A DNA stretch of 52,304 bases from NCBI GenBank assembly GCA_017962745.1, contig JAGCUR010000009.1, forward strand, positions 1 through 52,304, read 5' to 3'. The notes under the pieces are model-generated. The model saw only the letters and a program-made list of their open reading frames with translations. It was not told where the DNA came from and made no database searches. The position numbers were made by a program, and so were the translations under genes. This document shows positions 18,846-27,730 of this stretch, piece after piece; positions within the stretch are counted from its first letter, which is position 1, and each line of letters opens with the position of its first letter. This DNA comes from Bacilli bacterium (GTDB taxonomy: Bacteria; Bacillota_I; Bacilli_A; ML615J-28; CAG-698).

Positions 18846-21800
18846 TTATTCTTCGTAAGGAACATCTGCTAACTTGCAAGTGAATTCCTTAGCATAAGTT
18901 AAATCTTTTGTGATAGTCTCTAACATGTATTTTAAGATGAATTCTAAAGTTGTCTTACCATTTCTAGCTGTGTAGTTAAGAGCTGTCTTTACACCATCTT
19001 CATTTACATAGTAGATTGTATCATCAGTTAAACTGATAGTCTTGATTAAATTGAAATCAGAACCGAAGTTATAATTGCTTTCGCCCATTTGAAGGATAAA
19101 CATTGTATAAGCTAAACCATAATTATTATTAGTTCCATTGATATCATTAAGAACTGGAGTGTAGAACTTAGTGATAATAGCATTAACATAGTTAGTTAAT
19201 AAATCTTCTAAATATGTCTTTTGTGCATATTTCAATCTATCGTTGCTTCCGCAGTCGCTAGCAGCAGTTACATAATAAGATTCAGAATTCTTGTTTGCAG
19301 GATCAGTTAACTTACCAATTTGAATTGAAGTTAAGCCTCTTACAACATCTACTAAATCTTTGAATACGCCATCATATGCATAGCTATCAGTATACCAATC
19401 TTTAAATACTTTTGCGATTTCAGAATTTGCATCAAGTTTAGCGATTAGAGCATCATCGATTCTTGCATAATCAACATCTCTTGCAAGGTAGATAATAGTT
19501 TCTGGAGTTAAGTATGCTAAATCGTAATCAAGTTCGATCTTTTCACTATTAACTGTAACAGAATATTTACCATATGCAGTAACTGTAGTTGCTACATAGA
19601 TGTGGTAACCGAATCCACCTCTAACGTATTTAGCACCGCTAAATTCGCTAGTGTATGCTGTTTCATCGAATGCGATATCATCACCATAAATGGCGCTTAA
19701 TCCGCTTTGAGTTTCTTCAACGCCTTCTTCATTATTGATTAAGCGTTTGTAACTTGCTTTAACTGCGTTAACGAAATCAGTATCATATTTATCAGCTTCA
19801 GCTGGAGTAATTGTACTAATTGTTTCGCAAACTAGTGATAAACCTAAAGTCTTATAAACTGAGAATAGATATGCTTCACCATTTAATTTAGCGTTTTGGT
19901 ATTGAGTAGAAGGATCTACATTACCTTCTGCGTCATAAGTTAATACTTCATAATCTAAAACAGGAACGTTCTTCCATGAATCGATAATTGTATTGATACT
20001 TGATTGACGGTTTTCAACTTCTGATGCTTTTAATACATCAACCATCTTATCATATAATTCTTCTGCATAGTAAACTTGAGCATCAGTCCATTCATCTGGA
20101 TCAATAGTATTACCGCTTGCATCTTTAACACAAACTAGTACATGCCAGCCTGCTACACTGAACCAATCAGCTTTGTTATCAATTTTAGCCATCTTGTTAT
20201 AAGAAGTTGTAGCGCCATCAGTGAATAATACATCCCAAACGCTCTTTGAACCATTTAGGTTAAATGTAGCATCATCATTATAGATATTATTCATTGTGAA
20301 GTTACCGTCTTTATAACTACCTAATTGATGGTATGTCTTAGCATATGTTGCTTGAGCATCTTGATATACGAAGTACATCTTAAGATCATCAGTAGTCTTA
20401 ACACCATATGAACCATACATATTAGTTAAGAATTCTTCCCAAGTCATTGTGCCATAACCATATTGTAAGTAATATGCGTTATAGTAATCATATGTATTTT
20501 GAGCATTTTGAAGAGGTTCTGTGATTACTTCTTTATAAGCATCAGCTTTTTCTAACCATTTGCCTTTTGCAGAATCATATACTTCATTTAATCTACTCCA
20601 TTCACTATGAATGAAATAATCTTGTTCGTATAAGCTCATTACATTGATTAGGCCGTGGTCATTAGCCATCTTTTCAAACATGATATCAGCGCTTAATTCA
20701 TAGTCAGCAATCTTAGCAACTAAAGTCTTGCTCTTTTTCTTGCTAGCTTCGAAGCTTGAATCAACTGAAGCCATATAGTTTGTTTCGAATGTATCATCAT
20801 AAATTACTAAGCCTTTTTCTTTTCTTAACTCGTTAAATGCAGTTGTAGTCTTAGACTTAGTATAGCTATCTTTAGCGCCAGCAGCGATATATTCGATTGC
20901 TTTAGCTTTTTGTTCTTCTGCGCTTAAATCAGCCCATGCTTTACCGTATCCTTTAGCTGCGCTCCAGCCAAGCTTTAAGACAACTAAAGTAGAGTTAGCA
21001 GATGATGTTGGACCATAAACTTTATCTAAATCAAATTTATAATCTTCAGAATCTTTAGTTAGGTTATAAGCAGTTAAACCTTGTTTTAATGTAGAAGATA
21101 CTAATGTTTGGAATGTAGATGAAACATTAGCAAGTTCTGCATAAGTGAAGTGGAATTTAGATAAGAATTCATAAACATCTAAATCTTCGCTTGCGCCACC
21201 TTCATTATAATCTTCAATATTAAAGTTAGAACCATCTTTGTTTAAGCCGCTTTCAGCGTCAAATAAACCATTTGCTAGCCAATTATTAATTAATGAATTT
21301 AAAGTAGTAAGGCCAGTTGCATCAATAGCATCACTTCTAACTAATTTATGAGTACCATTTTCTAAAGTATATTTAGAATTATAGTTGTTATATAGCTTAA
21401 CCATAAATTCTAATGCTTGAGATGCGCTTAATTTAGCTTCAGTTAATGCAGTTTCTTTAGCTTCAGCTTCAGTTGTGCCTTCTACTGCCATTGCTTCATC
21501 ATATTTAGCTTTATATTGAGCAGCGTTTACCCAAACATAATCAACGATTTGAACACCAAGTTGTGCAAATGCATTGTCGCGTTCATCAGTAGTGTTGAAC
21601 TTAACATAGATTGCCCAGTATTCATCAACTAAATCTTTTTCATATGTAGATGCATAAGTTGTAGTGATGTTTGGTGCATCATCATCGTCTACCATTGCTT
21701 GAGTATTAGCAAATGTAGCACCGAATTCATTGATTTTAGCACAAACAGCATCTAAGAATTGATCATAGATTGCCATTACTTTATCAATGTCAGCTTCTAC

Positions 21801-22643
21801 ATTAATATCTTTATCGCTAATTCTTGAAGCAAATGATACATGACTTACGCTTTCAGAATCGATTGTAGAGAACTTCTTAGAATTATAAGTTCCTTTAGTT
21901 TTAGTTTCTTTATATTCTACATTAACTAATTCGAATAACTTCTTAGCATATTCATCTCTTAGGCCATATGCTGCTTTTTCAAGTTCAGCTAATTTAGCAT
22001 CGCTTAAATCTAGAGCATCTTTACCGTAACTAGTCATGAATGTTAAATACTTTTCCATATTTTGGAATACAGTATTAGCATAAGAATATACTGCATCATC
22101 CATTAAATAATCTAAAGTATATAAATATTTAGCATATTGATATGCATAAATATCTTTAATTTCTTTAACGCTTGTTACGTTATATGAAGAAATAGCTACA
22201 TCGAACCAATTAGCAATTGTTTCTTCATCTTTTTTTGTAGCTTCTTCGATTTCTTCTGCTGTAGCATCATCAGCTAGTTTATCAACTGCTCTGCCATCAG
22301 AGAAGATATTATCAGAAATAAATTTGTCAAGGCCATCAACATCAGCCTTAGCTTTTTCATAATAAGTTTCGCCTGTAGGTGAGGCGATGTTTTGAACTAG
22401 ATATGTATCAACTAGTTCAATAAGTGCACTATTACCATATGTTTTAGTTAATAGTTCGTATGCACTTTGATTGCTTACAGTTACATCTCCAACCTTTAAG
22501 AACTCTTTATCAGCATATTTATCTGATAACTTTGCACTACTTTGGCTGCGAGGTACAACTGAGCATACAACAGCCACAGCAACGATTATTAAAATAACAG
22601 CTGCTAAAGGTAGTGTACGCATTAGAATTTTCTTAGCATTCAT
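18846..22643 (-). CDS. Giant membrane-anchored protein with SurA/PrsA-like modules
   Basis: A 1265-aa protein with one N-terminal membrane helix (about residues 10-30, no lipobox), the rest predicted extracellular and mostly helical. Residues 47-88 (KVGDVTVSNQSAYELL, then a helix ending in LIELVDTYLV) look like the N-terminal chaperone module of SurA/PrsA foldases. A second copy appears near 645-680 (YELSADIMFEKMANDHG). WHVLVCV near 834 and GYHIYV near 1013 resemble the HIL strand of parvulin isomerase domains, but I cannot show an intact one. Monocistronic with its own promoter and terminator. A foldase for secreted proteins is the best guess; at this size it may be a surface scaffold. Confidence 0.55.
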   Translation of the reverse strand: MNAKKILMRTLPLAAVILIIVAVAVVCSVVPRSQSSAKLSDKYADKEFLKVGDVTVSNQSAYELLTKTYGNSALIELVDTYLVQNIASPTGETYYEKAKADVDGLDKFISDNIFSDGRAVDKLADDATAEEIEEATKKDEETIANWFDVAISSYNVTSVKEIKDIYAYQYAKYLYTLDYLMDDAVYSYANTVFQNMEKYLTFMTSYGKDALDLSDAKLAELEKAAYGLRDEYAKKLFELVNVEYKETKTKGTYNSKKFSTIDSESVSHVSFASRISDKDINVEADIDKVMAIYDQFLDAVCAKINEFGATFANTQAMVDDDDAPNITTTYASTYEKDLVDEYWAIYVKFNTTDERDNAFAQLGVQIVDYVWVNAAQYKAKYDEAMAVEGTTEAEAKETALTEAKLSASQALEFMVKLYNNYNSKYTLENGTHKLVRSDAIDATGLTTLNSLINNWLANGLFDAESGLNKDGSNFNIEDYNEGGASEDLDVYEFLSKFHFTYAELANVSSTFQTLVSSTLKQGLTAYNLTKDSEDYKFDLDKVYGPTSSANSTLVVLKLGWSAAKGYGKAWADLSAEEQKAKAIEYIAAGAKDSYTKSKTTTAFNELRKEKGLVIYDDTFETNYMASVDSSFEASKKKSKTLVAKIADYELSADIMFEKMANDHGLINVMSLYEQDYFIHSEWSRLNEVYDSAKGKWLEKADAYKEVITEPLQNAQNTYDYYNAYYLQYGYGTMTWEEFLTNMYGSYGVKTTDDLKMYFVYQDAQATYAKTYHQLGSYKDGNFTMNNIYNDDATFNLNGSKSVWDVLFTDGATTSYNKMAKIDNKADWFSVAGWHVLVCVKDASGNTIDPDEWTDAQVYYAEELYDKMVDVLKASEVENRQSSINTIIDSWKNVPVLDYEVLTYDAEGNVDPSTQYQNAKLNGEAYLFSVYKTLGLSLVCETISTITPAEADKYDTDFVNAVKASYKRLINNEEGVEETQSGLSAIYGDDIAFDETAYTSEFSGAKYVRGGFGYHIYVATTVTAYGKYSVTVNSEKIELDYDLAYLTPETIIYLARDVDYARIDDALIAKLDANSEIAKVFKDWYTDSYAYDGVFKDLVDVVRGLTSIQIGKLTDPANKNSESYYVTAASDCGSNDRLKYAQKTYLEDLLTNYVNAIITKFYTPVLNDINGTNNNYGLAYTMFILQMGESNYNFGSDFNLIKTISLTDDTIYYVNEDGVKTALNYTARNGKTTLEFILKYMLETITKDLTYAKEFTCKLADVPYEE

Positions 22644-26122: not shown

Positions 26123-26156
26123 CTATCATTAAATGTTGATTTAATGATAGTTTTTT
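26123..26156 (+). terminator. Terminator of yigZ
   Basis: A 12-bp perfect stem (CTATCATTAAAT at 26123-26134 with 26139-26150), GTTG loop and six T, 14 bp after the stop. Confidence 0.9.
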
Positions 26157-26164
26157 GTTAAAAT
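26136..26164 (+). promoter_or_regulatory. Promoter of the degenerate ABC module, overlapping the yigZ terminator
   Basis: TTGATT (26136-26141), 17 bp, TAAAAT (26159-26164). The -35 lies in the loop and 3' arm of the yigZ terminator hairpin. AGGAGG follows at 26178-26183. Confidence 0.55.
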
Positions 26165-26190
26165 GGAGGTAGAAAAAAGGAGGTAAATAT

Positions 26191-27075
26191 ATGTCAGTTT
26201 TAGTTTGTCAAAACTTGTCATACGAAAAGAACGGCAAGCAACTAATTAAAGACTTTTCATATAACTTCCTAGAGAAAAAAGTATATGCAATTATTGGTAA
26301 AAGCGACGCGAATAGTCGCGATTTACTAAACTTATTATGTGCAAAAAATAAACCATCAAGTGGTGATGTATACCTTGATGGTAAGCTATTTTGGAATAAC
26401 GGTGCGATCGATAATCGCGTATGCTTTATCCCTAACGACACCAAGTTTCCTCCTCATATTAAGTTACTTGATATCTTTAAATTGATGGCAACTAATTACC
26501 CAAGATGGGATAATTATTATGCATATGAGCTCTTAAACTATTTTGGTATTAATCCAAAATCAAGATTCTCAGCTCTCCATAATAATGAAAAATCACTACT
26601 CTTTGCCATTATCTCTCTAGCAAGTAAAGCTAACATTACGATCATGGATAACCCAGTTGGTGATGCAGACTTAAAAGCAAGATTTGACTTTTATAATTTC
26701 TTGTTTAAGCATCAAGCAACCTATCCGCGTACATTTATCATATCAACCGAATTAATCGAAGAGATGTCATTTTTAGTGGATAGTATCTTACTTTTAGATA
26801 GAGGTGTTTTAATTGAAGCTTTCACTTCTAAAGAGATTAAACAAAACTTCTGCTACTTAACTGGTAAAACAGATGTTTTAAGAAATCTTATTCCAGGTCT
26901 AAAAATAATCGGTTATGAAGAACATGGATCTACATTAACTGTATGTTGTTCACAACGAATCAATAAAGACTTAACCCGTAAATTCCAGAAATATTTTATC
27001 GATATTTCCGAAGTTCCAATTCAAAAAGTCTTAATTTATTTGATTAATTTAAGAGAAAGGAAAGGTATCAACTAA
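26191..27075 (+). CDS. ABC ATPase-like protein with every catalytic motif replaced
   Basis: A 294-aa protein that aligns along its length with the YtrB-type ABC ATPases paired with GntR regulators (PRWDNYYAYELLNYFGI, LASKANITIMDNP, YPRTFIISTELIEEM, ILLLDRG). The nucleotide-handling residues are gone. The Walker A position reads GKSDANSRDLL (residues 36-46) with no P-loop Lys-Ser/Thr. The signature region is ALHNNEKS. Walker B has Asn154 in place of the catalytic Glu (IMDNP). The switch His is Glu187 (ISTELIEE). The frame is open and uninterrupted, with AGGAGG and a promoter, so it looks selected as a non-hydrolysing protein. Its stop overlaps the next gene (TAATG). Confidence 0.8.
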   Translation: MSVLVCQNLSYEKNGKQLIKDFSYNFLEKKVYAIIGKSDANSRDLLNLLCAKNKPSSGDVYLDGKLFWNNGAIDNRVCFIPNDTKFPPHIKLLDIFKLMATNYPRWDNYYAYELLNYFGINPKSRFSALHNNEKSLLFAIISLASKANITIMDNPVGDADLKARFDFYNFLFKHQATYPRTFIISTELIEEMSFLVDSILLLDRGVLIEAFTSKEIKQNFCYLTGKTDVLRNLIPGLKIIGYEEHGSTLTVCCSQRINKDLTRKFQKYFIDISEVPIQKVLIYLINLRERKGIN

Positions 27076-27695
27076 TGAAACTTAAACTTTCTTTTAAAGT
27101 CCATTTCTATAGTAATTATCGTTATTACTTATATTATTTAGCAATCGTAGCTTTATCACTAATTTTAAAATATACCCTAAATATCGATTACGGAATCTAT
27201 TTAGGATATATCATGATTAGTACATTTATCTTTAGTATATTACTTGGTATTTATGAATACTCAATAGTATTACATACATATCTAAATTTCCAACCGAATC
27301 CAAGAGCATTCTGGATTCATAGTATCTTTGCTAATATTGTTAATAGTATCATTTGTATCATTATTACGATAATATTTAATTTAATAATGAAGTTTACAAC
27401 TGAGTGTACACATGTATATGCTGATGCAATAATACCTTTACTTATCCTAAATCTATTTGGATTTAGTATTGGTTCTTTAGCTTATATCTTGTTACACCGC
27501 GGAGAAAACTTACCATTTATTACTATTATTATTTTATTAGTTGCCTTAGTATTTTTTGGTCAAGTATTTAATAACTGGCTAGTAATGTTAATATCATATT
27601 ATTTAGAACAATACTTAATTTGGATAATCTTACTTTGTTTAACTATAGCCAGTGAAGCAATAATAATATTAAGACTAAAAAGATTTATAAAATAA
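27075..27695 (+). CDS. Six-helix membrane protein partner of the ABC-like protein
   Basis: A 206-aa, strongly hydrophobic protein with about six transmembrane helices, starting near residues 17, 40, 78, 118, 145 and 172. No recognisable catalytic motif. The 1-nt overlap with the ABC-like gene suggests the two form one complex, as in YtrB-type export or sensing modules. Without a working ATPase, transport by the usual mechanism is unlikely. No GntR regulator is adjacent. Confidence 0.6.
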   Translation: MKLKLSFKVHFYSNYRYYLYYLAIVALSLILKYTLNIDYGIYLGYIMISTFIFSILLGIYEYSIVLHTYLNFQPNPRAFWIHSIFANIVNSIICIIITIIFNLIMKFTTECTHVYADAIIPLLILNLFGFSIGSLAYILLHRGENLPFITIIILLVALVFFGQVFNNWLVMLISYYLEQYLIWIILLCLTIASEAIIILRLKRFIK

Positions 27696-27730
27696 AAAGG
27701 ATCACGCAAATAATTGCATGATCTTTTTTT
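27695..27730. terminator. Bidirectional terminator between the ABC module and rplQ
   Basis: A 10-bp stem (27700-27709 with 27714-27723) with A and T runs outside. In the rplQ-sense RNA the one imperfect pair is a G-U wobble, so it is strongest for the ribosomal operon. Confidence 0.85.

Follow-up and report, generated by a model that had tools for sequence, protein, structure and literature searches.

Which function can keep an ABC-type protein in a genome when almost none of its nucleotide-handling residues are left is the question raised by a two-gene locus within the window (the whole stretch of 52,304 nucleotides that was analysed from a Bacilli bacterium). The first gene encodes an ABC pseudo-ATPase, and its stop codon TAA overlaps the ATG of a membrane partner gene by one base (TAATG; table 1). 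The intact frame, the AGGAGG and the 1-nt coupling to a membrane gene reported in the initial annotation were all found as described, with both ORFs, an AAGGAGG and the TAATG junction in place. The upstream gene, which we take to be YigZ/IMPACT-like from its sequence rather than from a family search, is separated from the module by an A+T-rich hairpin, and a second hairpin separates the convergent rplQ. The former is missing from the output of the terminator scan, which requires G-C pairs; the T-run of the latter on the + strand was read directly from the sequence.

Table 1. Features of the pseudo-ATPase locus, in positions of the window.
Feature	Coordinates	Strand	Basis or remark
Possible terminator after the YigZ-like gene, 12-pair A+T-rich hairpin and T-run	26123..26156	+	Read from sequence
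Promoter-like TTGATT-17-TAAAAT, TG before the second hexamer	26136..26164	+	Consensus scan only
Ribosome-binding site AAGGAGG	26177..26183	+	Sequence; 7 nt 5′ of the pseudo-ATPase ATG
ABC pseudo-ATPase gene, 294 aa	26191..27075	+	ORF; NBD-like core (residues 1-219) and C-terminal domain
Former Walker A GKSDANSRD, residues 36-44	26296..26322	+	Alignments
Former signature motif LHNNE, residues 129-133	26575..26589	+	Alignments
Former Walker B ITIMDN, residues 149-154, Asp kept, Glu to Asn	26635..26652	+	Alignments
Former switch His, now Glu187	26749..26751	+	Alignments; His missing in all orthologues
C-terminal domain, residues 220-290, most conserved part in the family	26848..27060	+	Entropy, dN/dS
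Six-helix membrane partner gene, 206 aa	27075..27695	+	ORF; predicted type V/ABC-2 fold
Terminator-like hairpin (27700-27723) with T-run, between the module and convergent rplQ	27700..27730	.	Scan, - strand

A promoter had also been claimed, and here the evidence is divided. The site in the window matches the consensus at 9 of 12 positions, and in the consensus scan sites of this kind are not commoner than in shuffled sequence. At the equivalent position, roughly half of the orthologous loci (L125, L131 and L133 among them) carry a promoter-like element TTGACTTTT-N10-AGTGTATA that is stronger than the site of the window and near-identical among its copies, and most of its exact matches across the 28 genomes of the family are located at the pseudo-ATPase locus. 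This element may be a strong vegetative promoter or a regulated operator. In several genomes its spacer contains an ACTTTTT/AAAAAGT inverted repeat.

The membership of the 294-aa protein in the ABC family is well supported along its length. Pfam ABC_tran (PF00005) scores 23 bits against a cut-off of 25, and the same profile is found at E ≤ 0.01 in 22 of 23 orthologues (best 2.5e-15). The best family match is PmtA, the ATPase of the phenol-soluble modulin exporter (NCBIfam NF047565, E = 1.1e-17), and it extends over the whole length (residues 6-284 against positions 5-279 of the 282 in the profile), with a score of 64.2 bits that leaves the protein outside the PmtA equivalog (curated cut-off 350). 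The predicted structure shows an ABC fold (pLDDT 81) whose PDB matches are ABC NBDs; its C-terminal domain is modelled with low confidence (pLDDT 51-67), and a sequence search of solved structures with this domain alone gave nothing convincing. The YtrB-type sequence pattern noticed at first is thus retained, as the protein aligns end to end with canonical PmtA/YtrB-type ABC ATPases with no shift of motifs.

Aligned pairwise with L058, a canonical relative of full length (22% identity, E = 2e-18), the protein shows no gap across the P-loop, which rules out Walker motifs in shifted positions, and in the P-loop alignment VYAIIGKSDANSRDLLNLL of the 294-aa protein stands opposite IFGLVGINGAGKSTLLRLI of the canonical relative. 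Seven key residues were scored (Lys42, Ser/Thr43, Ser130, Gly132, Asp153, Glu154, and His187). The Lys is replaced by S42, the Ser/Thr by R43, the Ser-x-Gly by H130 and N132, the catalytic Glu by N154 and the switch His by E187, in agreement with the replacements first listed for the P-loop Lys, the Ser-Gly, the Glu and the His. Only the Walker B Asp153 is left, and the functional motif set of ABC ATPases (Lys-Ser/Thr, Ser-x-Gly, Glu, His) is therefore absent. The reference set consists of 14 canonical ABC ATPases that fall in the same length class and come from this clade and related ones; 12 of them have all seven residues, and the range is 5-7.

The loss is near-complete in the genus of the 294-aa protein and graded across the family, with 0-4 of the seven left in the other orthologues. 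Lys42 is present in 11 of 24 orthologues and has changed at least four times on the tree, Glu154 is retained in two (G006 and G025), the GxxxxGK[ST] P-loop is intact in G012 and G006, and Ser130-x-Gly132 is found in G016 alone. The switch His is missing from every orthologue and is the only key residue gone everywhere. The claim that every nucleotide-handling residue is lost therefore holds for the genus, with the exception of Asp153, but not for the family, which has kept scraps of the site. Judging from these residues, relatives with up to four of the seven (G006 and G016) may still bind nucleotide. The ancestor of the protein was a PmtA/YtrB-type (type V exporter) ABC ATPase, and ATP hydrolysis has most likely been lost; the motif loss in all orthologues indicates that it probably is the non-hydrolysing ABC derivative initially proposed. 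A separate, by its motifs half-degenerate case is another ABC ATPase of 290 aa (L112, on contig C20 of G012), which keeps the P-loop and the signature and has Asn for the catalytic Glu and for the switch His.

Of the 28 genomes in the family, 24 have a stop-free orthologue of the pseudo-ATPase gene (46-90% identity), one of them (G022) cut by a contig end. The family consists of uncultured gut and digester bacteria and keeps the gene at one fixed chromosomal place. Among the four negative genomes, G020 has a contig end immediately behind YigZ and the completeness of G027 is 61%; a clean absence is seen only in genus g8 (G008 and G021), where a small two-helix gene comes straight after YigZ. 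No clear orthologues were found outside the family. The best profile matches of the sister family are far weaker (E of 1e-24 to 1e-27 vs. 1e-83 or better). In a pattern-based scan covering 84,980 species genomes, every match belonged to the group (metagenome-assembled genomes that were deposited under names such as Acholeplasmatales and Bacilli), except for two weak ABC matches. The corresponding place in the sister family was also inspected for a canonical ancestor, and this idea was rejected; in the genomes examined a YigZ-like gene is located there, with no ABC gene directly after it.

The dN/dS of the pseudo-ATPase is 0.058-0.120 for the pairs with usable dS, and that of its C-terminal domain 0.033-0.041, values that are approximate because dS is high (0.9 or more). 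The active-site columns are unconstrained and the data are metagenome assemblies, as might be expected of a decaying gene or of an assembly or annotation artefact. However, the frames are intact throughout the family, dN/dS is well below 1, and independent assemblies show the same locus. Because intact orthologues and purifying selection extend over the family, the pseudo-ATPase is neither decaying nor an assembly artefact, and such an origin has a negligible probability. The first reading of the gene as not decaying is borne out, with purifying selection and no frameshifts among its relatives.

The main finding is that conservation is inverted with respect to canonical ABC ATPases. In a comparison of 22 pseudo-ATPases with the 14 canonical sequences, the latter forming an older and more diverse set, the mean entropy over 11 nucleotide-contact columns is 0.21 bits in the canonical proteins (NBD mean 1.76) and 2.09 bits in the pseudo-ATPases (NBD mean 1.39). 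In the pseudo-ATPase family, 0.45% of the sets drawn at random from the NBD columns reach this variability, a value that is descriptive because the sequences share descent. The entropy of the C-terminal domain is 0.74 in the pseudo-ATPases and 2.33 in the canonical proteins, so that the most variable part of the latter is the most conserved part of the former. The drift of the contact site suggests that the site has no common role and that selection has moved to the C-terminal domain.

A ligand sensor, in which the pseudo-ATPase would still bind nucleotide or another ligand through altered contacts, would be consistent with the near invariance of Gly36, a basic residue at 37, Asp160 and Arg180-Thr181 among the orthologues, and with the survival of Lys42 in about half of them. 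However, positions 38-44, 130-132, 154 and 187 vary with no common new pattern, as expected if there is no common ligand, and such a sensor is improbable.

Another candidate arrangement is a heterodimer with a canonical ABC ATPase of the cell, in which the pseudo-ATPase would either supply the impaired half of a transporter with degenerate sites or act on its partner as a dominant-negative regulator. The genome has 47 ABC_tran matches, and degenerate sites are common in heterodimers. In known heterodimeric exporters, which resemble the pseudo-ATPase in having catalytic residues replaced under selection, one good site is kept and the bad one is conserved, undiverged among orthologues and read as having a retained role (PMC7756269). 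The pseudo-ATPase, on the other hand, stands alone, with both half-sites lost and drifting and with no canonical ATPase gene adjacent, and does not fit this class. A composite site is formed by the Walker/H-loop set of one subunit and the signature of the other (PMC7756269). As the pseudo-ATPase lacks both, no competent site would be formed in a heterodimer, which leaves this pairing very unlikely. Since both composite sites of any dimer with the pseudo-ATPase lack essential parts, powered transport by the pseudo-ATPase and its membrane partner is also unlikely.

The next gene after the pseudo-ATPase at 16 loci encodes a multi-helix membrane protein whose start lies -4 to +2 nt from the stop. 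The partner evolves fast, with 14-24% identity to the 206-aa copy outside the genus, and for the pair G000/G001 its dN/dS is 0.18. A model built from 15 sequences (pLDDT 82) has its best PDB matches in PmtCD (top), NosFY and ABCG1 chains, all of type V/ABC-2. For the best chains the TM-score, taken on the query, is 0.61-0.66; the Foldseek probability reaches 1.00, but the E-values are weak (0.13-1). No significant sequence match was obtained for the partner, the ABC2_membrane family of Pfam matches 1 of the 15 partners at E = 0.7, and the profile-profile match to the 8-9-helix permeases of canonical relatives is not significant. Despite the weak E-values, the best matches all point to one fold class, in line with the PmtA match obtained independently for the ATPase, and an ABC-2/type V permease fold as modelled would fit docking to an NBD-like protein.

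Seven genomes with the pseudo-ATPase have no partner at the locus. They form one clade of six (G016, G026, G007, G006, G019, and G025) plus G014, therefore two losses are indicated; the contig of G026 ends 186 nt downstream, and its sister G007 is clear. A whole-genome profile search of the seven was negative, with a chance-level match in G014 (E = 0.16), and a hidden copy was thereby rejected; the same profile recovered the G018 copy, left out of its building, at E = 5.9e-20. The pseudo-ATPase of partnerless genomes is still constrained (dN/dS of 0.12 for G019/G025 and 0.04 for the C-terminal domain). Over residues 81-127 the partnerless clade has an identity of 0.51, a value between those of two partner-bearing sets (0.57 and 0.40); compared by region, the identities give no sign that the docking part relaxed once the partner was lost.

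These results bear on the reading of the pair as an obligate non-hydrolysing membrane module, in which the pseudo-NBD would be a fixed structural or sensory subunit, functionless alone. The tight coupling of the genes at 16 loci and the match between a type V-like partner fold (PmtCD best) and a PmtA-like ATPase agree with it. However, the partner was lost twice while the pseudo-ATPase was kept, and outside the genus it is 14-24% identical, compared with 45-56% identity to the 294-aa protein for the pseudo-ATPase. Because the partner is fast-evolving and absent from seven genomes that keep the pseudo-ATPase, the pair does not seem to be an obligate unit, and an obligate module is rather unlikely. 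The functional module initially seen in the pair is accordingly not upheld, the partner being missing from these genomes both at the locus and by profile. Of the proposed sensor or scaffold on a membrane protein, an inference in itself, the docking part fits the predicted partner fold, but the strongest constraint lies on the C-terminal domain, which the proposal did not mention.

The surroundings of the module vary among the relatives. A spoIIID-like gene is located divergently upstream of the pseudo-ATPase in ten genomes (L035, L036, L037, L039, L043, L044, L046, L048, L050, and L051). A role in sporulation was rejected, since SpoIIID and SpoIVA are absent from the source genome and from many others that keep the pseudo-ATPase; this patchy distribution in the family indicates that spore formation seems to have been lost repeatedly. 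At L038 (G005), unrelated genes of 702 and 540 aa stand upstream in place of the YigZ-like and CCA-transferase-like genes of relatives, and the module is intact. Elsewhere in the window, positions 18846-22643 (- strand) encode a 1265-aa protein with one N-terminal membrane helix, and proteins with a similar helix are found at the same relative place in many relatives.

Several known systems resemble parts of the locus. PmtA differs from the pseudo-ATPase in its intact active site and in a C-terminal domain that is variable instead of conserved. PmtCD, NosFY and ABCG1, type V/ABC-2 exporters and the best PDB matches of the modelled partner, differ from it in that the partner is shorter (206 aa) and dispensable. 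The GntR-YtrB-type cassettes (L057, L058, and L059) have an ATPase of the same length with a homologous C-terminal domain and an adjacent membrane gene, but their motifs are canonical and their permease has 8-9 helices and 330-360 aa. A GntR-like gene of 115-120 aa is found at L057 and L059 and was not seen at L058; none was recognised beside the pseudo-ATPase among the translated neighbours at the loci inspected. FtsEX and BceAB offer an analogy only, as ABC architectures used for signalling and not transport (PMC7828314, PMC11627006), and they use ATPase activity, unlike the role proposed here. No description of dead ABC subunits as a class was found in the open-licence literature, which is weak evidence of absence. 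The protein is homologous to the ABC ATPases and is best described as a pseudo-ATPase of this fold that stands alone and is maintained throughout one bacterial family.

On balance, we lean slightly toward a pseudo-ATPase derived from a PmtA/YtrB-type ATPase that acts, through its C-terminal domain, as a non-hydrolysing adaptor or switch, with the membrane protein as an accessory. The NBD-like core would retain the shape needed for docking to its six-helix ABC-2-like partner, and the partner would anchor the pseudo-ATPase to the membrane in most species and could be lost. The conserved C-terminal domain would carry the retained function, either dimerising the protein without ATP, or binding a conserved cytosolic partner, or both. 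More tentatively, and with somewhat less than even confidence, this domain may have taken over as the functional part of a retained regulator, an ATP-independent dimeric adaptor that in most species would connect some conserved process of the cytosol with the membrane and in others would work without the membrane protein.

A motor has apparently been turned into a scaffold or switch by evolution. A stand-alone ABC subunit with both half-sites lost and drifting, and still under strong selection, is evidence that the ABC fold can be kept for a use other than that of ATP. Because the losses are graded, from four of the seven residues down to none, and the partner has disappeared twice, both the order of the changes and the roles of the parts can be tested within this family, and the C-terminal domain provides a defined bait for finding the function.
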